From a virus, in IMG/VR virus record IMGVR_UViG_3300047655_000013, positions 1 through 64,000 of that record: 64,000 nt of DNA; one strand, given 5' to 3'. Each line of letters opens with the position of its first letter. Within the stretch, counting starts at the first letter, position 1. The notes under the pieces are model-generated. The model made no database searches. It had not been told where the DNA came from and was given only the letters and a program-made list of their open reading frames with translations. Shown here one piece after another: positions 2,578-63,136 of the stretch. Made by a program: the position numbers and the translations under genes.

Positions 2578-2924
2578 TGAGCATCCTTCAAAAAGTCCCT
2601 GTCACCCGTTGCGAAGATGGCTATTGGAGCCATCCCGACCTCATCCACTTCTGGCACGTTGAAATGAACGATGCAGAGCATTGCACAAAAGAGCAATGGG
2701 CCGATCTGGAGCGCCGCGCAGGCATCAAGACGCAGATCATCTATCTCGAAAGTGAATCGTTGGAGCATCCCGCATACGTTTCCTATTTCGATAACGGCAA
2801 CACGGACATTTCGGAATGGGACCCTTCGCCACCGCCGGACTGGTGGCTCATTGACATATGTGACAACGAAGACGGGCCATTCGCAGTTTGGGCGACGCAT
2901 ACGAACGACGCAGAGGCATCGTGA
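2577..2924 (+). CDS. Hypothetical protein, 115 aa
   Basis: An acidic, aromatic-rich protein (several Trp, Tyr and Asp residues, DPSPPPDWWLIDICD near the C-terminus). I do not recognise the family. It is coupled by TGATGA overlap to the gene before and by GTGA to the gene after. Confidence 0.5.
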   Translation: MSILQKVPVTRCEDGYWSHPDLIHFWHVEMNDAEHCTKEQWADLERRAGIKTQIIYLESESLEHPAYVSYFDNGNTDISEWDPSPPPDWWLIDICDNEDGPFAVWATHTNDAEAS

Positions 2925-3448
2925 GTCCCACCCCCTATCAAATCAGCCTCCTGCATCACACTCTGGGCCTGAGCGAGCAGCGCCGCGAATCGTATCGGAA
3001 TCACTTCGTGGCCGGTCACGGGCATAGCGACATGCGCCATCTTGAAGCGCTTGAACAAGCCGGATTCATGGAACGCCGGGCCACGCCGAAGTTTCTCGAC
3101 ACTGGCGACATTGTGTTCGCGGTCACCGATGCAGGTCTCGAGGTCGCCGTTCGGGCGTTGCCGGAACCAGTAAAGCTCGCGAAGGCTCAATCACGTTATG
3201 AGCAGTATTGCGATGTCAGCGAATGCTATGACTCGTTCGGCGCGTTCCTTGGCATTCCCGAGGTCAACTTCGAGGAGAGGAACAACAGCGGCTATCCAGA
3301 CTATAGGCGGGTTAGGGAATACCGCATGTATCGCGGTAGCCGATGGGGGAGCTTCAGCGCCGAGATCAAGGGCGAATGGGCGCCAACCAAAAAGGAAGCC
3401 AAGGCTAGCTATAAGGCTGTGCTGAAGGCTAAACGGGAGTCGTCATGA
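2921..3448 (+). CDS. Conserved phage protein with winged-helix-like N-terminus
   Basis: 175 aa from the GTG that overlaps the previous stop. The first 80 residues (HTLGL...YRNHFVAGHGHSD, then LEALEQAGFMERR and VFAVTDAGLE) recall a family often seen in Burkholderia phages and look like a winged helix-turn-helix. Residues 85-175 form a separate unit with Tyr/Arg-rich segments and a Lys-rich tail. DNA binding is an inference from the fold pattern. Confidence 0.6.
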   Translation: MSPTPYQISLLHHTLGLSEQRRESYRNHFVAGHGHSDMRHLEALEQAGFMERRATPKFLDTGDIVFAVTDAGLEVAVRALPEPVKLAKAQSRYEQYCDVSECYDSFGAFLGIPEVNFEERNNSGYPDYRRVREYRMYRGSRWGSFSAEIKGEWAPTKKEAKASYKAVLKAKRESS

Positions 3449-3597
3449 TCCGAAAACTCGACCGCCTCTACCAACGCCATCCCCGCCTGACATTTGCCGG
3501 AATGGTTCTCCTTGCAGTACTAACACTTTACGCCGCCGACAGGGCTGATCGGGATAACCGGGTGCTGTGGGCGGCTACTCAAAGAGGTTCGACATGA
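3445..3597 (+). CDS. Single-pass membrane protein, 50 aa
   Basis: Basic N-terminus (IRKLDRLYQRHPR), one transmembrane helix (about residues 15-31), then a charged tail (DRADRDNR). The positive-inside rule puts the N-terminus in the cytoplasm. It overlaps genes on both sides by four bases. Function unknown. Confidence 0.55.
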   Translation: MIRKLDRLYQRHPRLTFAGMVLLAVLTLYAADRADRDNRVLWAATQRGST

Positions 3598-4796
3598 GCG
3601 AAACCAAAGAATTGACTGTCCCGGAGCGCGCAGCGGTTGCCCTTAAATCCAGCGAGCACGAAGAAAACCTCCGTGCCCTGGTGCTGTCCACGGCCGATAT
3701 CAAGGTCGTCAACAGTAAGGCCGGTCGCGATCAGGTGCATGCCGCAGGCATGGTGCTTTTGAAGTCCCGCACTGGTCTGGTTGCAGTCTCGGAATCTGCG
3801 GTCGAAGACGCCAAGGCCTTCACCAAAGCCGTGAAGGCAGAAGTGGCACGGCTGCTTGAAATTTCCGAAGCCGAAGAAAAGCGTCTGTTTGCTTTGCGCG
3901 ACGCTTGGGACGCTGAGGTCGCAGCCGAAAAAGCCGCGAAGCTCGCTGTCGAGAAAGCCCGAGTCGACCTGATCCGCAGGATGATCGATGAGATCAAGAC
4001 CTGTCCCGCCGAATGCATCGGCCGGTCAGCCGTCGAGATTCAAGGCGCGATCGACACCATGACGAATCATGAGATCGCTCTTGAAGAGTTCATGGAATTT
4101 GCCGGCGAAGCTCAGATGGCAAAGGTTGCGGCGCTGGCGAAGCTCAACGATGCGCTCGCCTCTCAGGAAGCCCACGAAGCCGAACAGGCCCGAATCGTCG
4201 CCGAGCGTGCCGAACTTGAGCGTCTGCGCGCCGAGCAGGCCGAGCGCGACCGTCTCGCCACCATTGAGCGCCAGCGCGTCGAAGATGAAGAGCGGATCGC
4301 TCGCGCCAAAGCACAAGCTGCAATGCTTGCAGAGCAACAAGCGCACGAAGCACGGTTGCAGGCTGAGCGCGACCGTGCCGCTGCAGAGTTGTGCGCCCAG
4401 CAGGAAGCACACGCAAAGCTGGTCCGCGAACAACAGGCGGAGATAGATCGCCAACAGGCCGAAATCGATGCAGCCCGAGCCGAACAGGAGCGTAAAGAGC
4501 GGGAGGCACGCGAGGCCGTAGAGGCTGCCGAACTCGCCGAGACAGAGCGTGTCGCCGCCGAGCAATCTGCAGCGGCTCAGGAAGAAGCCGATCGCGTTTT
4601 CGCGGAGCAGCAGCGGGTTGAGACGGAGCGTCGCGCAGCGGAAGCGGAGCAACTGCGTCGTGCGCAGATCCAGTTCGAAACTATCGGCCCGGATGCAGAC
4701 GAGATCCTGTCTGTGCTTGCCAGCCACTACGACGTAAGCAATGAGGTCGCGCGACACTGGCTTGGGCGGCACGCATGGATGGAGAAAGCAGCATGA
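3594..4796 (+). CDS. Long coiled-coil protein upstream of the recombination genes
   Basis: 400 aa. The N-terminal 180 residues look like a folded helical domain. Residues about 190-350 are almost pure Ala/Glu/Gln/Arg heptads, a long coiled coil of TolA-like composition. The C-terminal 45 residues (DADEILSVLASHYDVSNEVARHWL) look like a small helical domain. Similar proteins often precede annealing proteins and exonucleases in phages, so a recombination-accessory or DNA-scaffold role is possible (inference). Confidence 0.65.
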   Translation: MSETKELTVPERAAVALKSSEHEENLRALVLSTADIKVVNSKAGRDQVHAAGMVLLKSRTGLVAVSESAVEDAKAFTKAVKAEVARLLEISEAEEKRLFALRDAWDAEVAAEKAAKLAVEKARVDLIRRMIDEIKTCPAECIGRSAVEIQGAIDTMTNHEIALEEFMEFAGEAQMAKVAALAKLNDALASQEAHEAEQARIVAERAELERLRAEQAERDRLATIERQRVEDEERIARAKAQAAMLAEQQAHEARLQAERDRAAAELCAQQEAHAKLVREQQAEIDRQQAEIDAARAEQERKEREAREAVEAAELAETERVAAEQSAAAQEEADRVFAEQQRVETERRAAEAEQLRRAQIQFETIGPDADEILSVLASHYDVSNEVARHWLGRHAWMEKAA

Positions 4797-5257
4797 GCAA
4801 TCCGACTACACCGGAAGCGCGAGCGAGAAAGTCTGAATGGCAACGCGAGAGTCGTCGCAAATTTGCGGAGGAGCGCGGGTATTCCACGACTGCCAATTAC
4901 GGCGCAGGCGGACATCGCGAAGAAGTCCTGGAGCGCGACGGTTATGAGTGCGTTAAGTGCGGCATGACAGACGCGGAGCACAAGGAAAGGTGGGATCGCT
5001 CGATCACGATTGATCACAAAAACAAGGATCGCGGCGACAACTCCATGGAAAATCTTCAGACGCTCTGCCTGACGTGCCACGGAAACAAGGATTTGATACC
5101 TCGCTTGCGGGCGCAGCGCGTCGCACCGTTCAAAGACCAGATTCTCGCCATGAGAGCGGCCGGCAGAACCTATCAACAAATTGCCGATGAACTCGGCTTT
5201 AGCGTCGCAACCATCTGGAAGTGGTGCGGCTCATGGGAGAGCGCAAGCCATGAATGA
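4793..5257 (+). CDS. HNH nuclease with C-terminal helix-turn-helix
   Basis: 154 aa. HNH core at residues 53-96: C53/C56 knuckle, D74-H75 in ITIDHKNKD, N87, then C92/C95-H96. A resolvase-type HTH follows (TYQQIADELGFSVATIWKW, about residues 127-145), a layout common in self-splicing-element and phage homing nucleases where the HTH gives target choice. ATG overlaps the previous stop. Confidence 0.8.
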   Translation: MSNPTTPEARARKSEWQRESRRKFAEERGYSTTANYGAGGHREEVLERDGYECVKCGMTDAEHKERWDRSITIDHKNKDRGDNSMENLQTLCLTCHGNKDLIPRLRAQRVAPFKDQILAMRAAGRTYQQIADELGFSVATIWKWCGSWESASHE

Positions 5258-6185
5258 AATAATCGAAATGCCCCGGCAGCAGGCGGCTCTCGTCAATGCT
5301 GGCCGAATGTCCGCAATGGAGGTTGTGGCGCATACCGCAGCCGTCCAGGAGGTGATGCGCGCGGTAATGAAGCCAGACGTGCATTACGGAAAAATCCCCG
5401 GCACACCGAAGCCTGCGCTTTACAAAGCGGGCGCGGAAGTCCTATGCATGTCATTCCGCATTGCCGACGAGTACGAGGTAGATGACCTGTCTACACCAGA
5501 CATGATCCGTTACCGAGTGACATGTGTCGGCAAACACCAGACGAGCGATACCAAGCTTGGGTCGGGAATGGGGGAAGCCTCGACCGGCGAGGAGAAATAC
5601 AAATGGCGCGGCGCAGTTTGCGATGAGGAATTCGAGATCACGCCAGCTACGCATCGCCGCATCAAGTTCGGCAAGAAGCAGGGCGGCGGGTTCTACAAGG
5701 CAAATCAGGTTCGCACCGAACCGTCTGACCTCGCCAACACGGTCCTCAAGATGGCCTGCAAGCGGGCAAAGATGGCGATGGTCCTCAACGTCACCGCAGC
5801 GTCCGATATTTTTTCGCAAGATTTGGACGAGTTGGACGAAACACTTCGCGATCACCTCGCAGGTCAGGATGGCGGCGGTCAACCCGTGTTGAGTACGCTG
5901 GGCGTAAAACTTGTCGCAGAGGCGAACGCCATCACAACCCGCGAACAGTTCGAAGCGCTCTGGAAACGAGGCGTCCAGGAAATCAATGCCGCCAAAGACG
6001 CCACCGCGTCCGATGCGTTCAAGGCTGCAATGGAGGCAAAGAGCAAGCTGCTTCCAGCCAAAGCAGCAGAACAGGCCAAGGACACCGAATCGCAGCGCGA
6101 ACCGGGCTCTGACGAAGCCGAGATGGAGGCCGATTTCCAGCGTCAGGTGGCGCGCGAACGGGAGAGTCAAAGTGCAAATAATTGA
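5250..6185 (+). CDS. Probable single-strand annealing (recombinase) protein
   Basis: 311 aa. The gene lies directly before, and overlaps, a YqaJ-type exonuclease gene, the standard place for a phage annealing partner. The core (MKPDVHYGKIPGT, YKAGAEVLC, then DLANTVLKMACKRAKM) has the look of the Rad52/Erf/RecT-like annealing group, where a conserved Ala/Lys/Arg helix contacts ssDNA. I cannot assign it to a named family with certainty. The C-terminal 80 residues are Lys/Glu-rich and probably mobile. The ATG at 5250 removes a spurious extension that would overlap the HNH gene. Confidence 0.55.
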   Translation: MNEIIEMPRQQAALVNAGRMSAMEVVAHTAAVQEVMRAVMKPDVHYGKIPGTPKPALYKAGAEVLCMSFRIADEYEVDDLSTPDMIRYRVTCVGKHQTSDTKLGSGMGEASTGEEKYKWRGAVCDEEFEITPATHRRIKFGKKQGGGFYKANQVRTEPSDLANTVLKMACKRAKMAMVLNVTAASDIFSQDLDELDETLRDHLAGQDGGGQPVLSTLGVKLVAEANAITTREQFEALWKRGVQEINAAKDATASDAFKAAMEAKSKLLPAKAAEQAKDTESQREPGSDEAEMEADFQRQVARERESQSANN

Positions 6186-6939
6186 GTGTCCGCAAGGATC
6201 AGAGTCGTGGCATCAGGCCAGGGCGGGCGTAATAACTGCCAGCATGTTCTCCACGATCCGCAAAAAGGTAGGCGAGCTCGACGAACGGCAAAAATACTTT
6301 GTCGCACTGCGCATCGCGGGAACGCCCGAAAAAGCCGCTGCAGAGGCCGCTGGCTACAAAACTTTGCCGAAGTCCGACATCATCACTCGCGCACTAAATG
6401 GCGAGAAGATCGGTGACTGGTCCGATGCAGCAAAAGATTACGCCTTCAGATTGGCGATCGAGCGCATCAGCGGGAAGCCTCTCGACGAAGGCTTCGAAAC
6501 GTGGAGCATGAAGCGCGGCCATGATCTCGAGCCAGAGGCGAGGATGGAACACGAAGCCTTGACGGGGTTGTTCGTTAAACGCGCCGGGTTCGTAAAAACC
6601 GACGATGGAATTTTCGGCGCAAGCGCTGATGGCCTGATCGACCCTAAGGGCGGCAGCGAATACAAGTGCTTCATCGCGCCTGACAAGCTTCGCCCGATTG
6701 TGCTTGAGCACGATGTCAGCGAAGTAAAAGATCAAGCCCTCGGGTGTATGTGGCTATGTGGTCGCGACTGGTGGCATGTGGGACTGTATTGTCCCGCGCT
6801 CGCGCCGGCCAACAAGCAATTCACGATGGTGGAAGTCAAGCGTGACGATGATTTCATCGAAAAGATGGAACAGGATCTTTGGCAGTTCGCGCTATTCGTC
6901 GACCAATACGAAGCCGCTCTGCGCAAACAAGCGGCCTAA
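6172..6939 (+). CDS. YqaJ/lambda-exo-type exonuclease
   Basis: 255 aa from GTG. Shows the recombinase-exonuclease signature: G9-S10-x-S12-W13 near the N-terminus, the WxMKRGHDLEPEAR helix (residues 111-124), and the catalytic D154 followed by E163-x-K165 (SADGLID, then GSEYKC). This is the PD-(D/E)xK metal site that degrades one strand of dsDNA to feed the annealing protein. Residues about 31-88 form an extra block between the first two motifs, containing TPEKAAAEAAGY, which resembles a helix-turn-helix and is absent from lambda exo. Confidence 0.8.
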   Translation: MQIIECPQGSESWHQARAGVITASMFSTIRKKVGELDERQKYFVALRIAGTPEKAAAEAAGYKTLPKSDIITRALNGEKIGDWSDAAKDYAFRLAIERISGKPLDEGFETWSMKRGHDLEPEARMEHEALTGLFVKRAGFVKTDDGIFGASADGLIDPKGGSEYKCFIAPDKLRPIVLEHDVSEVKDQALGCMWLCGRDWWHVGLYCPALAPANKQFTMVEVKRDDDFIEKMEQDLWQFALFVDQYEAALRKQAA

Positions 6940-6943
6940 CCAA

Positions 6944-7014
6944 ACCCCCACCCCTCCCGACCGGAATAGGCGACTACGAGTCGCAGTCTCTCCAAATGGG
7001 AAGAGGGTGGGGGT
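6944..7014 (+). repeat. Long inverted repeat after the exonuclease gene
   Basis: A 10-bp perfect arm pair (6944-6953 with 7005-7014, C-rich against G-rich) encloses a small hairpin CGACT/AGTCG (6971-6983). It lies in a 182-base gap. It could protect the 3' end of the upstream mRNA or mark an old module border. Confidence 0.55.
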
Positions 7015-7066
7015 CTAACGATCAAGTAACCCTCGGACCGCGCTCCCCAAGGGCGCGGCGTTTGCA

Positions 7067-7095
7067 AGGGGCGCAGTCCCGGCCCCGCTTTTTCA
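7067..7095 (+). terminator. Rho-independent terminator before the variable-protein gene
   Basis: Stem GGGGC/GCCCC followed by GCTTTTT. A second hairpin, CCGCGC/GCGCGG (7038-7043 with 7053-7058), sits just upstream. Together they would end transcription from the recombination operon, so the next gene probably has separate expression. Confidence 0.55.
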
Positions 7096-7121
7096 AATCC
7101 GACTTTTTGGAGTTCATCCAT

Positions 7122-7712
7122 ATGAGCAACGATCAGACCTTATCGCGCCGTTTCGGCGCCGCAGAGGTAAAGGTGCCGGCCGACGAACTGTTTTCGGCCT
7201 GGTTCAAACAGCAGCTTGGCATGACGGTCAACGTCGGTCGTGATGTGCCTTCGATCGGCGCGGTGTGGCCGGGCGAAGGTGGTGTGAACGGTGGCTTGGG
7301 CCGCAAGGAAGATGGCACACCCGAGTGGCTGATCGTGCCGCCGATCAAGGTCGGCTATTTCAAGGAAGTCACCTACGGCGGCTACGGCAAAGATGTGCCG
7401 GGTGCAGCGAGTTGGTACGACGGCCGCGCGAACACGGCCGCATTGTTGGCGGCCGGGGATGCCTACCAGGCTGCCCGGAAATGCTCCGACCTGTCGCACG
7501 AAGGGCACGCCGATTACTTCCTGCCGGCGAAGCTGCAACTGGCGCAGGTCTACGCCAGCCTGCATGGGGTCATCCCGAAGGAGTGGGTGCTGTCGTCTAC
7601 GCAGTACTCGGCCAACCACGCCTGGAGCCAGCACTTCTACAGTGGCGACACCACCTTCTGGGACGAGGACGACAAAGCCGGCGCGCTCGCCGTCCGCAGT
7701 ATTAGTTTTTAA
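7122..7712 (+). CDS. DUF1566-like protein, former DGR variable target
   Basis: 196 aa, preceded by a ggag ribosome site. The C-terminal half (YFLPAKLQL, then LSSTQYSANHAWSQHF and ALAVRS at the end) has the Trp/Ser-Ser-Thr, Ala-Trp and AVR landmarks of C-type-lectin-like DUF1566 proteins, which are frequent targets of diversity-generating retroelements. Codons at the expected variable positions (cac, agc, cac, tac, gac, acc, acc, ttc, gac) all end in C and differ from AAC only at adenines, the fingerprint of adenine mutagenesis. The template repeat is not found and the reverse transcriptase is broken, so the sequence is probably frozen. The natural ligand is unknown. Confidence 0.7.
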   Translation: MSNDQTLSRRFGAAEVKVPADELFSAWFKQQLGMTVNVGRDVPSIGAVWPGEGGVNGGLGRKEDGTPEWLIVPPIKVGYFKEVTYGGYGKDVPGAASWYDGRANTAALLAAGDAYQAARKCSDLSHEGHADYFLPAKLQLAQVYASLHGVIPKEWVLSSTQYSANHAWSQHFYSGDTTFWDEDDKAGALAVRSISF

Positions 7713-7764
7713 TTCTTCAATCCTTTAACACCATGGCAATCCGCGCAGATGCACGCACTGTCGA

Positions 7765-7950
7765 TCACTCATCGTCAGATGGCGGGGACTCTTTAGGTGC
7801 CTTAGCACGCTGTATGAGTTGGCGTAGCCAGCCGATGCCGTACGCATCCACCTTGGCCCACTGTGCGGCGGTAAGCCTGATAGAGCGCTGTTCAAGGCGC
7901 TCTTCAGGAGGTGTTGGGGGGCGGCCCCGTGATCGTTTGGTCTGTTCCAT
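7765..7950 (-). CDS. Ribbon-helix-helix-like small regulator
   Basis: 61 aa on the strand opposite to its neighbours. A basic AT-hook-like start (SRGRPPTPP) leads into RSIRLTAAQWAKVDAYG, the beta-strand/helix pattern of CopG/Arc-type repressors. The ATG at 7950 is chosen over an upstream GTG. A palindrome lies about 20 bases before the start and could be its own operator. Its position inside the decayed DGR cassette suggests it belongs to that module. Confidence 0.55.
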   Translation of the reverse strand: MEQTKRSRGRPPTPPEERLEQRSIRLTAAQWAKVDAYGIGWLRQLIQRAKAPKESPPSDDE

Positions 7951-7971
7951 GTGCGCATTGTATCGCATTTG

Positions 7972-7982
7972 TTGTGACACAA
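7972..7982. promoter_or_regulatory. Palindrome, possible operator
   Basis: TTGTGACACAA, an 11-bp palindrome with central base, lies in the divergent gap between the minus-strand RHH gene and the plus-strand HNH gene. Autoregulation by the RHH protein is a guess from position. Confidence 0.3.
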
Positions 7983-8047
7983 AAATACCTTGCTCTTCAG
8001 TATTTGTTGAATCACAATAAATGCATCACCAAACAAGGATACCGACC

Positions 8048-8521
8048 ATGGCATTTAACAAACTCTCGCTGGAACAAAGGCTTCTGAACAAGGTGGAGCA
8101 GGTTGGGGCATGTCTTCTATGGATCGGTCAGAAGGACAAGAAGGGGTACGGGCGAATCAGTGTTGGCGGGAAGGTGCGACGCGCGCATATCGTGCACTTC
8201 GAGCTTCACAATGGCCCAGTGCCGGAGGGGAAGATTTTGATGCACTCATGCGATACCCTGGCATGCATCCACCTCGGGCACCTCACGCCGGGAACGCAAC
8301 TGGAGAACGTGCACGACATGCTGGCAAAGGGTCGCGCGAACAAGTGCAGGGGCGAGAAGGCAGTCCACGCGAAATTGACCGAGGAGCAGGTATTGGAGAT
8401 TCGACGCCTCTATGAACCGGGTAAGTATGGCCGTGGATCACATGCGTTGGCGAAGCAGTTTGGAGTTTCACAGGCATCTATCCATTCAATCTTGACAGGC
8501 GAGTCATGGAAGCACGTCTAA
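8048..8521 (+). CDS. HNH homing endonuclease inserted in the RT gene
   Basis: 157 aa. The HNH core is of the phage homing type: MHSCDTLACIHLGHLTPGT (about residues 65-83) with N87, followed by a C-terminal HTH (LAKQFGVSQASIHSIL) and the common ending WKHV. The stop codon lies exactly at the point where reverse-transcriptase homology resumes (RLNPKKT), so this gene appears to have replaced the 5' part of the RT gene. Weak ribosome site aagga before the ATG; an in-frame ATG at 8021 is an alternative start. Confidence 0.8.
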   Translation: MAFNKLSLEQRLLNKVEQVGACLLWIGQKDKKGYGRISVGGKVRRAHIVHFELHNGPVPEGKILMHSCDTLACIHLGHLTPGTQLENVHDMLAKGRANKCRGEKAVHAKLTEEQVLEIRRLYEPGKYGRGSHALAKQFGVSQASIHSILTGESWKHV

Positions 8522-8811
8522 ACCCGAAGAAGACGATTCTTCAGCCTGTCGATCGCGGCGTTGACTTTGTCGGCCATGTCATCAAACCGTGGCGCCGTTC
8601 AACGCGACCACGCACGGTTAATGAGGCATTGCGCCGCACAGCCGCCAGTGCGCCGGCTGATGTGCATCAGCTCGCGAACAGCTATTTCGGCTTGCTCAGG
8701 CAGGCACCGTCCAGCCACCACGACCGCGCGCGGCTCGCGAATGTGGTTCGCGATCGCGGGCATGCCGTCGACCGAGCGCTGACGAAGACTTTTCGCGGGT
8801 CGGTCGGATGA
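8506..8811 (+). pseudogene. C-terminal remnant of a DGR-type reverse transcriptase
   Basis: About 98 residues remain. RLNPKKT, then GVDFVGHVIKPW and LANSYFGLLRQA, are the thumb-region landmarks that follow the catalytic palm in group-II-like and DGR reverse transcriptases. The palm with its YxDD box is absent here, and no copy occurs elsewhere in the window. The frame opens inside the last codons of the HNH gene. It cannot be a working polymerase. A nine-C tract follows shortly after the stop (8827-8835). Confidence 0.7.
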
Positions 8812-8869
8812 CCGTTCCAGCAACTACCCCCCCCCATACGCCGCGCAGTGGCTGCGCGAAGAGGAAATT

Positions 8870-9451
8870 ATGAACGTGCTTGTCGGTTGCGAAGAATCGG
8901 GCGCAGTACGAGATGCGTTCGCCAAGATCGGCCACAAGGTTCTATCTTGCGACCTGCTGCCGACGCGCACCGCGGGTCCGCATTATGAAGGCGACATTTT
9001 CGACGTGATCGACTACCCGTGGGATTTGGCTATTTTCCATCCTCCCTGCACCCACACGTCTGTCAGTGGCGCGCGTCACTTCGCAGAAAAGTGGATGGAC
9101 GGCCGCGGCGCTGCTGGCGTCTCGTTCTTCATGAATCTGGTTCGCCGGTCGACGCATATACCGAAGACGGCCTTCGAGCAGCCAGTGTCGATCATGAGTT
9201 CGCTTTATCGCAAACCGGACCAGGTAATTCAGCCATGGCAGTTCGGTCACGGCGAGACGAAGGCGACGTGTTTATGGCTGAAAGGCTTGCCGCTGTTGAT
9301 GCCGACACAGGTCGTCGAAGGTCGCGCCGATCGCATCCACAAGATGGCGCCGGGACCTGAGCGGGCCCGCGAGCGCTCAAAGACCTACGACGGCATCGCC
9401 CGAGCAATGGCAGCGCAATGGGGTGGCGACCTCGTTTCGCAAGCCGCCTAA
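8870..9451 (+). CDS. C5-cytosine methyltransferase-like protein
   Basis: 193 aa, much shorter than a full C5 methyltransferase. Motif I-like AdoMet loop at the N-terminus (VGCEESGAVRDAF, then D28), motif IV-like HPPCTHTS (residues 57-64, Pro-Cys) and FEQPVS in the place of the ENV motif. There is no recognisable target-recognition domain. Such mini-MTases are common in phages; some may protect DNA, others may have lost activity. Activity here is not proved. Confidence 0.65.
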   Translation: MNVLVGCEESGAVRDAFAKIGHKVLSCDLLPTRTAGPHYEGDIFDVIDYPWDLAIFHPPCTHTSVSGARHFAEKWMDGRGAAGVSFFMNLVRRSTHIPKTAFEQPVSIMSSLYRKPDQVIQPWQFGHGETKATCLWLKGLPLLMPTQVVEGRADRIHKMAPGPERARERSKTYDGIARAMAAQWGGDLVSQAA

Positions 9452-9497
9452 CCCCATCCGCGCAGCGCGCGAAGCAATCGAACTATAGGACAACATC

Positions 9498-9839
9498 ATG
9501 AGCGATCAACTTGCACTGGAATTCGATGCCCCAAGAATGGTATTTGCAAGACGAAGCGCAGCCGATGAAATTCGTCGCGTCCTTATGGACGTTTTGCCTG
9601 AAGGTGTTCCTCCGTCATTCGGGCGCGTCGTTGCGGCTCGATTTTCAGGCAAGTCTCGCGTCGTCGCCGAACTGGAAATGGTCGATGGTTTGCGGGCTGA
9701 GGTTGAGGCATGGCAATGGTGTCAAGACGCGTGGGCGCACCGCTGGGTGAAGCTGGAAGGCGGGGACCTGTCTTGGGAGAACGGCGCTTGGGTTCGCATA
9801 CCAACGGAGCAACCGCAGGCGATGGAGATAACCGCATGA
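9498..9839 (+). CDS. Hypothetical protein, 113 aa
   Basis: A mixed alpha/beta composition with many Trp residues in the second half (EAWQWCQDAWAHRWV). I do not recognise it. A weak ribosome site (aggaca) precedes the ATG, and the stop overlaps the next start. Confidence 0.5.
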   Translation: MSDQLALEFDAPRMVFARRSAADEIRRVLMDVLPEGVPPSFGRVVAARFSGKSRVVAELEMVDGLRAEVEAWQWCQDAWAHRWVKLEGGDLSWENGAWVRIPTEQPQAMEITA

Positions 9840-10351
9840 ACACCGTCAATCACAACATCATGAGCGATACCACTAAAGATGCAGGGCCGAGCGAAGACGC
9901 GATTGAGCAGGAATGCCCCGAGTGTGGCGCGCTTTGCTTGTTCGACGACGGCAATTATGTGGCGATCGAGTCTTTGCCTGTAGAGAGCGAAGTTTCGCCT
10001 CAGAATGCGCCCGATGTGCGAAACGCGCTGGTATCGCTTGAATGCGTGAGGCAATGGCTCAATGGGGGGTGCGATCCGAAAGCTGCTTCCGTCGAGATCA
10101 CGGGAATTATGCGCATGCTGCAAGGCGATGCCCCCGCCCAAGTGCAGGCGGAGGCAGTCCGGGTGCCGGACGGCTGGAAGCTGGTGCCGATCAAACCCAC
10201 GGCCGAGATTGTCAAGGCAGGCGGAAAAGCTCGCATGGACGACTTCAACCGTAACGGCACGACCCTTTCTATCAAAGATGCCAACCGCGTCGCTGAAGCA
10301 ATGTACCGCGCAATGATCGAAGCCGCTCCATCTACCGGTGACCAGTCATGA
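9836..10351 (+). CDS. Hypothetical phage protein with zinc knuckle, 171 aa
   Basis: A CPECGALC knuckle lies near residues 25-32. The segment VPDGWKLVPIKPTAEIVKAG followed by a helix ending AMYRAMIEAAP is a C-terminal module that recurs in many phage proteins of otherwise different build. Function unknown. The modular look resembles the 614-aa gene downstream. Confidence 0.6.
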   Translation: MNTVNHNIMSDTTKDAGPSEDAIEQECPECGALCLFDDGNYVAIESLPVESEVSPQNAPDVRNALVSLECVRQWLNGGCDPKAASVEITGIMRMLQGDAPAQVQAEAVRVPDGWKLVPIKPTAEIVKAGGKARMDDFNRNGTTLSIKDANRVAEAMYRAMIEAAPSTGDQS

Positions 10352-15003: not shown

Positions 15004-15059
15004 CCGAAGCTGCACAACGCATCATTGAGAAAACGCGGGAATACTGGGAAATCAAATGA
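15000..15059 (+). CDS. Leader-like 19-residue peptide before rtcB
   Basis: A tiny frame (MTEAAQRIIEKTREYWEIK) that overlaps its neighbours by ATGA at both ends. It could be a coupling peptide or a remnant of a larger gene. Evidence is only the overlaps. Confidence 0.3.
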   Translation: MTEAAQRIIEKTREYWEIK

Positions 15060-17224
15060 AGAAAGTCATTCACGAAGAAGGTGCGCGTCCGATCAAGATT
15101 TGGACCGATGAGATCGAGGACTCGGCGCTTCAGCAATTGAAGAATATCGCACGCCTGCCATTCATCGCTGGCAATGGCGTCGCTTGTATGCCTGACGTCC
15201 ATGCTGGCATCGGCGCAACGGTCGGCACCGTGATCGCGACGGACAAGGCTATTGTGCCGGCCGCGGTTGGAGTTGATATTGGGTGCTTTGCTGGCGACAC
15301 GCTGGTATTCCTTGCGGACGGCAAAGATTATCGAATCGCGGATCTTGCGCAACGTGCGGAACCGTTCGCGGTCTATGGTTGCCGCCCGAGTGGCGATGTA
15401 GTCGCGGCCTATGCCACTGCCAAGAAAACAAGATCGGCCACAGCCGTCGTCGCCGTGACGCTGGACAACGGCGAGCGCATCCGGTGTACGCCAGATCATG
15501 AGTTCCAAATGCGCGATGGCACTTACCGGCAGGCTGAGAGCCTGTGCGCCGACGACTCGCTGATGCCGTTTTATCGCGAGATTGACCCCGAGGGATACTT
15601 GCGCATCAAGCAGAACCGTACAGGATATTGGCAGCGGGCGCACTGGATCGTCGGTCGATCATCTTTGCTCGGGAAAATTCCATCGTTTGAAGGACAAAAG
15701 ACGATCATCCACCACCGGGATTTCTGCGAATCGAACAACGACCCAAAAAACCTCGTGTTCATGGGTGATCGCGACCATAGCGCATACCATCGCTCGCTTG
15801 TTGACCGCAACACTCATTGGCAGTCGCCAGAATTCGAGGATCGCAGAAAGGCGGCCTTGCGCGCGCTGGCGGACACCGAAGAAGGCCGCGCCATGATGGC
15901 GGCACGCGGGACCGCAAACATTCAGAAGTACATGGCCGAGAATGGCGATGAGTGGCGGTCGTCCATTGCTGGCAACGGTGAGCGCGGCAAGGTCTATCTT
16001 CAGGATTACAACGCCAGCGTCGCTGGCCGACGCAAGAGCAGCGATAACGCCAAGCGCCTGCAACAGGTACCGCGCCAATGCCCGGACTGCGGGGTCGAAA
16101 TGCTCGGTCACCTTGCAGTCTTAGCGCATCGGCGCCGAGAACACGGTCTGCACTACAACCACAAAGTGGTGAGCGTGGAGGTGTTGACCGAAAGGGAAGA
16201 CGTTTATTGCCTCACCGTCCCGGACGTCGGTAACTTTGCACTGTCCGCCGGCGTGTTCGTCCATAACTGCGGCATGAACGCCGTGCGGCTGTCGCTGAAG
16301 GCAAGTGACCTTCCCGATAGCCTGCTGGCGATTCGCAACCAGATCGAACGCGACGTGCCGCTCGGTGCTGGGGGTACGCACCAAGAATCGCGCCCCCCCG
16401 AATTGCCCGCGGACCTTGGCGCACGGTATCTCGCATTGACTGCCAAAACACCGGGGATCACCAACAAGAACATGGCTAAGCAGCTCGGCTCTCTGGGCTC
16501 AGGAAACCACTTCATCGAACTGTGCATCGACGAAGCCCAGGACGTCTGGATCATGCTGCACTCTGGCTCGCGCGGCGTCGGAAACCTCATCGGACGTTAC
16601 TTCATCGAGAAGGCCAAGAAACGCATGGAGCAGTATTTCATCAGCCTGCCTGATGGTGATCTGGCCTACTTCCCGGAAGACACCGACGACTTCAACGATT
16701 ACGTCGAGGCGGTCAACTGGGCACAGGACTACGCGTTAGAGAATCGCCGGGTGATGATGGCCGCAGTCATTGCCGCCTTGCGTCGACACATTCCGATCGA
16801 ATTCTCGATCACGCATGAGGCCGTGAACTGTCACCACAACTACGTTGAGCGCGAGAACCACTTTGGCCGCAACCTCTGGGTGACGCGCAAAGGCGCTATC
16901 CGGGCGCGCGAGGGCGATCTTGGCATCATCCCTGGGTCAATGGGGCAGCGCAGCTACATCGTCCGCGGCAAGGGTAATTTGCAGTCTTACTGTTCATGCT
17001 CACACGGCGCCGGTCGGAAAATGAGTCGTGCTCAGGCTCGGCGCACTTTTACGGTGGCTGATCTTGAATCGCAGACGGCTGGCGTCGAGTGTCGCAAGGA
17101 TGACGCTGTGCTCGATGAGATTCCGGCCAGTTACAAGGACATTGACCAGGTGATGGAAAATCAGCGCGATCTGGTCGAGGTCGTGCATGTCCTTAAACAA
17201 GTTTTATGCGTTAAAGGCGCATAG
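15056..17224 (+). CDS. rtcB: RtcB-type RNA ligase interrupted by an intein
   Basis: 722 aa; removing the 328-residue intein leaves 394 aa, normal for RtcB. RtcB joins 2',3'-cyclic phosphate or 3'-phosphate RNA ends to 5'-OH ends using GTP and Mn2+. Visible signatures: GVDIG-CGM (metal-binding Cys), GSLGSGNHFIE, HSGSRGVG, NCHHNY, and CSHGAGRKMSR with the His that takes GMP. All key residues are present, so the spliced enzyme should work. In a phage it could repair tRNAs cut by host anticodon nucleases (inference). It lies just before xis and int. Confidence 0.9.
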   Translation: MKKVIHEEGARPIKIWTDEIEDSALQQLKNIARLPFIAGNGVACMPDVHAGIGATVGTVIATDKAIVPAAVGVDIGCFAGDTLVFLADGKDYRIADLAQRAEPFAVYGCRPSGDVVAAYATAKKTRSATAVVAVTLDNGERIRCTPDHEFQMRDGTYRQAESLCADDSLMPFYREIDPEGYLRIKQNRTGYWQRAHWIVGRSSLLGKIPSFEGQKTIIHHRDFCESNNDPKNLVFMGDRDHSAYHRSLVDRNTHWQSPEFEDRRKAALRALADTEEGRAMMAARGTANIQKYMAENGDEWRSSIAGNGERGKVYLQDYNASVAGRRKSSDNAKRLQQVPRQCPDCGVEMLGHLAVLAHRRREHGLHYNHKVVSVEVLTEREDVYCLTVPDVGNFALSAGVFVHNCGMNAVRLSLKASDLPDSLLAIRNQIERDVPLGAGGTHQESRPPELPADLGARYLALTAKTPGITNKNMAKQLGSLGSGNHFIELCIDEAQDVWIMLHSGSRGVGNLIGRYFIEKAKKRMEQYFISLPDGDLAYFPEDTDDFNDYVEAVNWAQDYALENRRVMMAAVIAALRRHIPIEFSITHEAVNCHHNYVERENHFGRNLWVTRKGAIRAREGDLGIIPGSMGQRSYIVRGKGNLQSYCSCSHGAGRKMSRAQARRTFTVADLESQTAGVECRKDDAVLDEIPASYKDIDQVMENQRDLVEVVHVLKQVLCVKGA
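15284..16267 (+). other. Intein within RtcB, with HNH homing domain
   Basis: Residues 77-404 of the precursor. Begins CFAGDTLV (block A, Cys1), has a TPDHEF block B with the conserved His, and ends FALSAGVFVHN (blocks F/G, terminal Asn) followed by Cys+1. Cys+1 is the catalytic metal-binding cysteine of RtcB (GVDIG-C-GMN), so ligase activity should depend on splicing. The central part carries an HNH motif (IIHHRDFCESNNDPKNLVF), so the element is probably a homing intein. Confidence 0.9.
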
Positions 17225-17234
17225 CGGAGGAAGT

Positions 17235-17456
17235 ATGGCAGCAGTGATTGACATGCCGAAACTGGTGACGCTTGAAGAGTGGGCTGAGCGCACGTTCGCG
17301 ACCAAACCGCATCGGAACACGCTGTACAACTGGCGTAGGGACGGCTGGATCGTGCCCGCCCCGATTAGGATCGGGAATAGGTATTTCGTCGAGCCGACCG
17401 CCGTGTATGCTGATAGCGATGGACAGATGGCCAGGAGACTCGGGAATGGCGGCTAG
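17235..17456 (+). CDS. xis: Excisionase
   Basis: 73 aa, strong ggagg ribosome site. The LVTLEEWAERTF...TLYNWRRDGWI segment followed by a strand (IRIGNRYFVEP) is the winged-helix pattern of phage excisionases. It overlaps the integrase gene by 11 bases, the usual xis-int pairing. It would bind the attachment arms and direct excision. Confidence 0.8.
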   Translation: MAAVIDMPKLVTLEEWAERTFATKPHRNTLYNWRRDGWIVPAPIRIGNRYFVEPTAVYADSDGQMARRLGNGG

Positions 17457-36419: not shown

Positions 36420-36507
36420 TCTCAATCCCTTTGAGATCCCTATGGAGGAGCTGCGGAGGCCGGTAGGGAGGCCGGTTTTCGAGAGCGACTCTATCCGCAG
36501 CAAATCA

Positions 36508-42137: not shown

Positions 42138-42220
42138 TGCTTCCCTGAAAGTTGAGCCCGCACCAGGCCGGACAGGGACCGGCTTTTCGGATGCGCAATC
42201 CTAGGTGCGGGGGTTAAGCG

Positions 42221-48431: not shown

Positions 48432-49706
48432 TTACCAGCCTTCAGAGTCGCCGAGGCTGATTGCCACGCTGTAGCAGAAGACATCGAGCGCGTCCATATG
48501 GTGGGGGGTTTTGGTACCAATGCGGAAACCGCAAACCTGTGACAGCAGATGATTCCTGGTCTGCCCTTTGTAGTTCGTCATCTTGTCGTAGGCATAGCGA
48601 CTGAACTTCACGTCGCCGCGGTAGACATAGCCGCTGACTGAAAGGGCGCGCCCTTCTTTCCCGAGGCTGACAATATCTTCATCAATGGGATAGACAGGTA
48701 AATCGCGCCTCTGCGACTGTTGGATCAGGACGGTGCCGCTACCCTTGTCTTCCACCCAGATGCCGACATTGCCTTGGCGAGCGCCAGTTTCCTTGGCCAG
48801 ATCCTCAAGCCGCTGATTGACCGATGGAAGCCACTCTTCGAGCAGTGCTCCCTGAATCTGGATCAGATCCCAGTCCAGAATGATCAGTGGATGGCCGGCG
48901 ATCTTGTTGCGAGCGCAATAAATGACCGCTGTACCGTCATGCTCCAGTCCATCCTTCAGCGCGGTGTCAACGACAGCAAAGACTTGGTCGCAACGGGTCG
49001 GATACTCGACCGGCTGGCCATCCTCAAGCAGACTAAGTTCCGAGAAGAAAGCCGAGCCGCGCCAGTCGACAAAATCGGCGAGATATTCCTGCTGGTAGAC
49101 CAGCGGTGGGTAATCATGAATCAGCTTCGCGACGACTTCCGGGTCCAGATGCGGGTTGGACGCCGTCGGCGCATGAAACTCCACCCACCCCTCAGTAGGA
49201 TTGGTGCACGCCTCATAGAAATAGTTGTCAGGGTCGATGCCTTTCGGCGTACCGGCCATGATGATCGAGCCGTTATAGTCCAACAGCGTTGGACGAATCG
49301 ACTGATCGATGATCTCTTTGAGGCCCTTCGCCTTGAGGCTTGCCTCGTCGACGATGACCTTGTGATACTTTCGGGACCGGCCCGCGTTCTCATCTTCCAA
49401 GGTCCAGAATTCAACCAGGCCTCCAGTATTAAGCTGGATGAGCTGGTCGATTTTCGACTTGGACTGAATGACAGGCTTCAGCGTATGGATCAGATTTCCA
49501 TACGTCGGCGCATTCAGCTTGTACTTCGGCCCGAGCCAGCCAACGCGCTCACCATTGAATGCCCACTTGGCGGCACATCGCTCGAGAAGGCTTGTTTTCC
49601 CGAAACGCCGGCCGCAGCGAATCACAACCTTTTTATGCTGCTGGAATCCGCGGGCGATCTCGATCTGGCGGTCATGAAGCTTCTGGAGCTTGACGGATTC
49701 CTTCAT
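48432..49706 (-). CDS. Terminase large subunit
   Basis: 424 aa. Walker A GRRFGKTS (residues 32-39) and Walker B VIVDEA (117-122) in the ATPase half. The RNase H-like nuclease half contains VVDTALKDG (first Asp) and ends HHMDALDVFCYSVA (later Asp). It cuts concatemers and pumps DNA into the prohead. Adjacent small subunit and portal confirm it. Confidence 0.93.
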   Translation of the reverse strand: MKESVKLQKLHDRQIEIARGFQQHKKVVIRCGRRFGKTSLLERCAAKWAFNGERVGWLGPKYKLNAPTYGNLIHTLKPVIQSKSKIDQLIQLNTGGLVEFWTLEDENAGRSRKYHKVIVDEASLKAKGLKEIIDQSIRPTLLDYNGSIIMAGTPKGIDPDNYFYEACTNPTEGWVEFHAPTASNPHLDPEVVAKLIHDYPPLVYQQEYLADFVDWRGSAFFSELSLLEDGQPVEYPTRCDQVFAVVDTALKDGLEHDGTAVIYCARNKIAGHPLIILDWDLIQIQGALLEEWLPSVNQRLEDLAKETGARQGNVGIWVEDKGSGTVLIQQSQRRDLPVYPIDEDIVSLGKEGRALSVSGYVYRGDVKFSRYAYDKMTNYKGQTRNHLLSQVCGFRIGTKTPHHMDALDVFCYSVAISLGDSEGW

Positions 49707-50465: not shown

Positions 50466-50541
50466 TGGAGCGAACTGTCGGATTCGAACCGACGACCGAG
50501 TGCTTGGAAGGCACTCGCTCTGCCATCTGAGCTAAGTCCGC
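50466..50541 (-). tRNA. tRNA-Gly (anticodon UCC), CCA encoded
   Basis: Reads GCGGACT for the 5' acceptor strand and AGTTCGC for the 3' strand (one G-U pair), discriminator U, then an encoded CCA. D-arm TTAGCTCAGATGGCAGAGC, an AGTGC/GCACT anticodon stem with loop cTTCCAA, and GTTCGAATC in the T-arm are all normal. 73 nt before CCA. Confidence 0.92.
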
Positions 50542-62347: not shown

Positions 62348-63136
62348 ATGAAAACGACAATTACGCGACTGATGCATGCGGTCACGGACAGGGAGTCCGC
62401 GTGGAACCGGCGCATCCTAAAAAAAGAGCTCGCGCAAGCTGCCGGGGTGACATCTTCAGCCGTTAGTTTCTGGTTGAACAACGAGGACACCGAACTCAAG
62501 GCGGAATGTGTCTTTGGCCTAGCGAAGTTCTTAAGGATTTCAGCCGAGTGGTTGCAGAGCGGCAAGGGCGATATGCTGGCGGTCCAGCACGATCCAGCTT
62601 TTACTGATTCGCTGAACACTGCACCAAAGACGCGCAAGATTGTTAAATCGACGCCTGACGATGCGACTAGCATTACGGAAAAGAAGCCTGCTGCGTACGG
62701 CAATTTCGACCGTGCTGCGGTGGGATATAGAGAGATCCCCGTAATAAGCTATGTTCAGGCGGGCATGATGACCGAGGCGATAGACCCATTCTCATTGGGC
62801 GATGGTTTTGAAGTTATTACGACAGACCTAGATCTGTCTGGCGGGGCTTTTGGGCTGATCATCAGAGGCCCGTCGATGGAGCCCGAGTTCAAGGAGGGCG
62901 ACAAGGTCATCATTGACCCCGCCGTCTCTGCCCAGCCTGGCGACTTCGTTGTCGCAAAGAATACGCAGGAAGAGGCGACCTTCAAAAAATACCGGCCGCG
63001 CGGCACCAGCGACCGCGGCGAAATGGTGTTCGAGCTTGTGCCGCTCAATGACGACTTTGCCACCCTACATAGCGAGCGGGACCATCTGCATATCATCGGG
63101 GTAATGGTCGAGCACCGTAAGTACCGCCGCCGCTAG
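62348..63136 (+). CDS. CI-type repressor with S24 self-cleavage domain
   Basis: 262 aa. N-terminal HTH (LKKELAQAAGVTSSAVSFWL, residues 25-44), linker, and a LexA/S24 peptidase domain with cleavage site A138-G139 (VQAGM), Ser176 (PSMEP) and Lys213 (ATFKKY). RecA-stimulated cleavage would induce the phage. The ATG lies against operator O3 and no ribosome site is seen, so the message may be leaderless, as lambda cI from PRM. Confidence 0.9.
   Translation: MKTTITRLMHAVTDRESAWNRRILKKELAQAAGVTSSAVSFWLNNEDTELKAECVFGLAKFLRISAEWLQSGKGDMLAVQHDPAFTDSLNTAPKTRKIVKSTPDDATSITEKKPAAYGNFDRAAVGYREIPVISYVQAGMMTEAIDPFSLGDGFEVITTDLDLSGGAFGLIIRGPSMEPEFKEGDKVIIDPAVSAQPGDFVVAKNTQEEATFKKYRPRGTSDRGEMVFELVPLNDDFATLHSERDHLHIIGVMVEHRKYRRR

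Follow-up and report, generated by a model that had tools for sequence, protein, structure and literature searches.

Replacement of avd-TR-RT by an HNH endonuclease module beside the variable protein of a former phage diversity-generating retroelement

Results

A variable protein, two intervening genes and the end of a reverse transcriptase

The window is the stretch analysed here, i.e. positions 1 to 64,000 of IMG/VR record IMGVR_UViG_3300047655_000013. The record of 65,076 bases represents a temperate phage with an integrase-like gene at 17272, a terminase at 48432 and a repressor-like gene at 62348. The locus of interest resembles a diversity-generating retroelement (DGR) that retains its target gene with the variable repeat (VR) but lacks avd, the template repeat (TR) and most of the reverse transcriptase (RT) gene. 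Its features are as follows (related loci are referred to by L numbers):

7122..7712 (+): DGR target, Lcl_C/DUF1566-type variable protein of 196 aa (L073/L074 homology, PHROG 4245, Lcl_C in the family)
about 7600..7699 (+): VR (blastn with the TRs of relatives, and alignments)
7733..7741 (+): left junction, where the lost avd apparently began (ATGGCAATC) and beyond which similarity stops (alignment with the avd starts of L073, L053 and L062)
7765..7980 (-): gene for a small regulator-like protein of 70 aa, together with the region upstream (DNA similarity to L143)
8021..8521 (+): free-standing HNH endonuclease gene (HNH_3) in place of avd-TR-RT (Pfam, PHROGs 1872/6254, alignment)
8515..8811 (+): RT C-terminal remnant, open up to the natural stop (PHROG 1423, alignment with the L059 RT, codon-position profile)
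8870..9451 (+): DNA methyltransferase-like gene adjoining the locus (PHROG 757, E 2e-59)

The target, which is present as a single copy in the record, matches PHROG 4245 (E 3.5e-22) and shares 46% identity along its full 196 aa with the target of L073/L074, where the DGR is intact; L073 has its closest target homolog. Pfam Lcl_C matches the C-terminal part of the window protein weakly (E 0.1) and is matched by 17 of 17 aligned members of the target family (best E 4.3e-7). At the level of sequence, 7122-7712 is thus confirmed as a DGR target of the Magia/Cruim01 family. An AlphaFold model of the protein has a pLDDT of 79, with low values in the VR, and a PDB fold search returned no match below E 1; positions 119-193 of the target-family profile match a single solved structure, 8q4e 'HbP1' (E 5.6e-6).

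The TRs of L053, L055, L064 and L062 align to window 7599-7699 (blastn, E 2e-12), and the VR is closed at 7692-7699 by GTCCGCAG, the same conserved sequence that marks the 3' ends of VRs and TRs in relatives. Because the phage's own template is missing, adenine specificity was assessed against the templates of relatives. The first 38 bases of the VR contain three differences, all at template A, while over 84 bases 13 of 29 A sites and 12 of 55 non-A sites differ (Fisher p 0.027). For comparison, the TRs of two relatives (L053/L073) differ from each other at 4 A and 14 non-A positions. The first-pass annotation described the codons of the variable region as nearly all adenine-only changes; the direction of this claim is borne out, but it cannot be exact in the absence of the phage's own template.

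The ORF at 8506-8811 matches PHROG 1423 (reverse transcriptase) only at profile positions 352-452 (E 1.8e-14). Its DNA is 72.7% identical to that of the Burkholderia phage Magia RT gene and, from the onset of RT homology at 8515, 78% identical to the RT of L059. The codon-position pattern of the remnant against intact RTs is that seen among intact RTs, i.e. there is no sign of decay, and the loss is thus either recent or the piece is still constrained. Selection for keeping the remnant was considered as an explanation and set aside, as a profile that equals that of intact RTs neither supports nor contradicts it. All that remains of Avd is the apparent start codon. An adenine-tolerant scan of both strands of the whole 65,076-base record found no TR (the best candidates have at least 35 non-A mismatches per 100), while the L073 TR, used as a positive control, was recovered at 0 non-A mismatches; likewise, tblastn found neither Avd nor an RT palm, nor a second RT, in the record. 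The first-pass annotation was therefore right that a DGR target lies here beside the C-terminal end of an RT (PHROG 4245, PHROG 1423 and the alignment with relatives' TRs), with neither a TR nor an intact palm. Its term "fossil" overstates the age, given a remnant without decay.

Two genes overlooked in that annotation stand between the target and the remnant, a small antisense gene and an HNH endonuclease gene. Window 7800-8035 is 73% identical in DNA to L143, a phage without a DGR in which the same small gene lies beside RecT and an exonuclease. Another phage with a homolog of this gene, L144, encodes a different RT (9021-9953, -; about 37% to DGR RTs) near tail-fibre-like genes, and no TR/VR was found around it. 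The HNH gene product scores 29.3 bits against Pfam HNH_3 (cut-off 24.8). The central Asn of its H-N-H motif is His, at a position that is unconserved in the nearest homologs too, and the enzyme may on this account be inactive. At the right junction, the TAA stop codon of the HNH gene sits inside RT-derived bases. Thus, the inserted genes begin at the Avd start codon and end within the RT gene, and they replace avd-TR-RT. A gene related to the adjoining methyltransferase-like gene follows the HNH gene in L150 too.

Elsewhere in the record, an RtcB RNA ligase gene (15056-17224, +; PHROG 1075) is interrupted by an apparent intein (GVDIGC-FAGDTLVF to VFVHN-CGMNAV), inside which lies an HNH-type match (PHROG 7545), i.e. 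another selfish endonuclease in this phage. The half with the structural genes has two matches to the int-alpA RNA family (RF02996), at 42143-42211 (-; 62.5 bits) and 36438-36501 (-; 45.8 bits). A tRNA-Gly lies at 50466-50541 (-).

Intact DGRs in related phages

Nearly all relatives of the RT and the target found in viral contigs have the order target(s)-Avd-TR-RT. When the loci were scanned for repeats that deviate from each other solely at adenines of one copy, nearly every locus with an RT yielded a TR together with one VR or two, a typical pair having 8-17 A mismatches and 0 others per 70 bases. In L073, for instance, the target is followed by Avd (6562-6933), the TR (about 7091) and the RT (to 8309). 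The first-pass annotation proposed that an active DGR once operated here and suggested a search for a relative with intact RT, Avd and TR; such relatives exist, with the same protein and with TR/VR differences that are purely adenine-specific, in agreement with that proposal. It also correctly placed the target in the early region. However, there is nothing peculiar in this position, because intact DGRs of the Magia/Cruim01 family occupy the early region as well. Among distinct target loci, the survey counted about 40 intact DGRs, and none has an insertion between target and RT.

Some related phages (L012, L025/L108, L055 and L226 (G304)) have extra targets at a distance of roughly 3-8 kb from TR or RT, and one RT apparently serves three VRs in them. 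The Pseudomonas genomes G099 and G359 encode more distant members of the target family with no RT of that family, i.e. orphan targets.

HNH genes recurrently stand in place of avd-TR-RT

The gap between target and RT end holds an HNH gene in several groups of relatives. A NUMOD4-HNH_3 gene is present in L004/L005/L006, L235, L236 and phages Aurca01 and Medea1, and in L041 there is one that is 54% identical to the HNH of the L004/Aurca01 group. HNH_3 genes occupy the gap in L010/L011/L015, in L150 (a locus found with the HNH as query) and, in frameshifted form, in L027; the gap of L035 holds a PHROG 374 member (E 4e-61). In the window, L004, L027, L035 and L041, the HNH gene runs directly into an RT C-terminal remnant, which shows that the DGR state is ancestral. 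By contrast, L014 has Avd and an RT remnant but no HNH, and both RT and HNH are absent from L030, L037 and L224. The junctions vary between cases: on the left they lie at the Avd start, at the VR end or after Avd, and on the right at RT aa about 283-344.

Of the 9 RT-deficient locus types found with the target as query, 6 have an HNH gene of one of several subfamilies precisely in the gap, against about 0.15 expected by chance. Over all gaps, the count is 7 of 11 against about 0.2 expected (P about 2e-9), an enrichment that serves as a guide only, because the loci are related by descent and some of these HNH genes went into the HMM; the expectation derives from the density of HNH ORFs in RT-intact loci (0.012/kb). 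These comparisons of sequences show that HNH genes have recurrently taken over the site of avd-TR-RT in related phages and that the targets remained. The first-pass annotation regarded relatives with the same protein and no RT nearby as speaking against its reading. Several such relatives exist, but they leave the DGR origin unharmed because most of them carry RT remnants or an HNH gene in the place of the RT.

Occupied and unoccupied alleles are mosaic

Aurca01 and L005 (HNH) and Cruim01 and L008 (DGR) provide occupied and unoccupied alleles with near-identical flanks. L005 and Cruim01 are 96.1% identical as far as the VR end and 97.6% identical beyond it, and L005 has 536 bases (HNH) where Cruim01 has 2,401 (second target, Avd, TR and most of the RT). 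P. syringae CC1557 was the isolation host of both Aurca01 and Cruim01, and both came from apricot soil. On the right side of the locus, the two phages share 99.86% identity along 4.3 kb that begin exactly at the end of the HNH gene. The N-termini of the two targets of Aurca01 are each identical to those of the DGR-bearing L008 (480/480). The HNH genes of Aurca01, Medea1 and L005 are the same (0/560 differences). Thus, one HNH sits in mosaic backgrounds, after the first target in L005 and after the second in Aurca01 and Medea1. All three have the same junction, CCCGTCCG|ACG, within the VR end sequence, suggesting that recombination took place through this repeated sequence. A third allele is found in phiPSA1 (L239), in which both targets, Avd, TR and RT are missing between flanks about 90% identical to those of Cruim01; MR13, MR15, psageB2, psageK9 and PSA-2T match in the same way. 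For the window, searches of viral contigs (with target, RT remnant, HNH and small gene) and of GTDB contigs (with the target) returned no close sister; because its nearest DGR-bearing relative is just 78% identical in RT DNA, the event can be neither dated nor polarised by a close pair.

Targets that changed after the RT was lost

A single bacterial genome (IMG 2684622590) harbors both L010 and L011 as prophages, each with an HNH gene and no RT. Over 6.4 kb (2790 to 9192) the two are collinear and differ by 4 SNPs scattered along this stretch and by another 12 changes, every one of which lies inside 50 bases of the VR of the first target and falls on A of the TR common to L007, L012, L013 and L017. 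This TR fits each VR of L010/L011 with one shared non-A difference, and those of L015 with none. A GTT variant occurs in both VRs of L010/L011. The simplest reading of these patterns is that another DGR in the cell acted in trans by mutagenic retrohoming after the HNH replacement. A search for the helper TR with the exact VR-end pattern matched only the VRs of L010/L011 themselves and one VR in L224, and identified no helper DGR. Accordingly, the first-pass annotation's description of the target as "frozen" is unsupported as a rule, since in one sister case targets without RT and with HNH kept changing at template adenines.

In the P. syringae group, HNH-linked VRs agree with the Cruim01 template at 66-67 of 67 non-A sites and deviate from it at 11-16 of 30 A sites; pairs of distinct VRs are separated by 11-17 differences at A sites and 0-1 at non-A sites. 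We did not accept this divergence as sole proof of action in trans, because identical HNH genes in differing target backgrounds show that HNH moves between backgrounds by recombination. In L004, L005 and L006 the target is identical, VR included.

Discussion

Based on these comparisons, we suggest that the window locus probably descends from an autonomous DGR, carried by a temperate phage, in which a mobile HNH module replaced avd-TR-RT, while the variable protein, its VR and the VR end were kept. In this model, HNH genes would spread by intronless homing, by analogy with known systems. During co-infection, the HNH endonuclease would cut a DGR-bearing relative near the VR end or the RT 3' end, and repair from the HNH-bearing genome would turn the DGR allele into an HNH allele. 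The remaining target would then rely on the DGR machinery of another phage in trans or, if none is met, become fixed. Because the junctions differ between cases, illegitimate recombination fits as well. More generally, and tentatively, DGR loci of these phages could exist in autonomous and non-autonomous forms, in which HNH homing endonucleases repeatedly delete avd-TR-RT and the targets are diversified in trans by the DGRs of co-resident phages; we regard this wider proposal as a serious possibility that falls short of being probable.

Several other explanations have to be weighed. The first-pass annotation held that the allele was fixed when the RT was broken, i.e. that the variable protein has stayed the same ever since a single loss of the RT. 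The RT is indeed broken, although by replacement of avd-TR-RT with an HNH module and not by simple breakage. A record without RT, TR and Avd and with a single target copy fits such a history, as do the identical targets and VRs of L004, L005 and L006, whereas the undecayed RT remnant, the intact VR end sequence of the window and the altered VRs of L010/L011 after RT loss count against it, and we consider it possible but rather doubtful. It is unlikely, in our view, that chance deletion removed the DGR and a common HNH gene then moved in, with neither homing nor any DGR-specific relation. Such a history would account for the variable junctions, for the RT losses without HNH in L014, L030, L037 and L224, and for the absence of the whole cassette in phiPSA1-type phages, and the RecT/Erf recombinases that adjoin the locus could have favored it; it does not account well for HNH genes that lie exactly in the gap far more often than expected in RT-deficient locus types, or for identical HNH genes in mosaic backgrounds.

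Two further possibilities are refuted by the data. Since one RT apparently serves distant extra targets in some related phages (L012, L025), a second DGR in the same record might diversify the target, but searches of all 65,076 bases for a second RT, Avd or TR were negative, making this very improbable. An accidental resemblance, in which a stray piece of RT happens to lie next to an unrelated Lcl_C-type protein, would agree with the weak Pfam score of the window protein; with a full-length homolog directly before Avd-TR-RT in L073, the template alignment and the same placement relative to the RT remnant, it is exceedingly improbable.

The replacement model relates the window to several known systems. 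With the DGRs of Magia (PMC7883833), Pseudomonas phage Cruim01 and L073 it shares the RT family, the order of Avd and RT, and the location of putatively lectin-like targets in the early/recombination region; unlike these, the window lacks Avd, TR and RT palm and has an HNH module instead. The partial DGRs of nanoarchaea consist of target and VR only, and their authors (Paul et al. 2015, PMC4372165) allowed both for fossils and for diversification from a distance. The window is similar in having a target with a putatively A-directed VR and no complete RT nearby. However, the loci described here belong to phages, have HNH replacements and RT remnants, and include one sister pair that changed after the loss. 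In intronless homing, free-standing endonuclease genes spread between related phages with co-conversion and marker exclusion (reviewed in PMC2988022). Free-standing endonuclease genes likewise appear to spread among the related phages here, but the lost marker here is a DGR, and cleavage and biased inheritance would be predicted. In the BPP-1 DGR, the VR end (IMH) and a nearby hairpin are the sufficient cis target (Guo et al. 2011, PMC3240598). Similarly, L010/L015 retain a GGGCGC-GATA-GCGCCC hairpin after the VR, whereas neither the window nor the short pre-avd gap of its closest intact relatives has such a hairpin. Judged by titles and abstract openings, none of the few open-access matches on DGRs together with HNH or homing endonucleases concerns this relation.

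RT-anchored annotation of DGRs would overlook targets without an RT. The isolated pair Aurca01 and Cruim01, from one host and one soil, makes homing into DGRs and diversification in trans directly testable. If true, displacement by selfish endonucleases would be a concrete route of DGR loss and would explain orphan hypervariable targets without an RT. The resulting arrangement would then be a parasite-driven counterpart of autonomous and non-autonomous retroelements.
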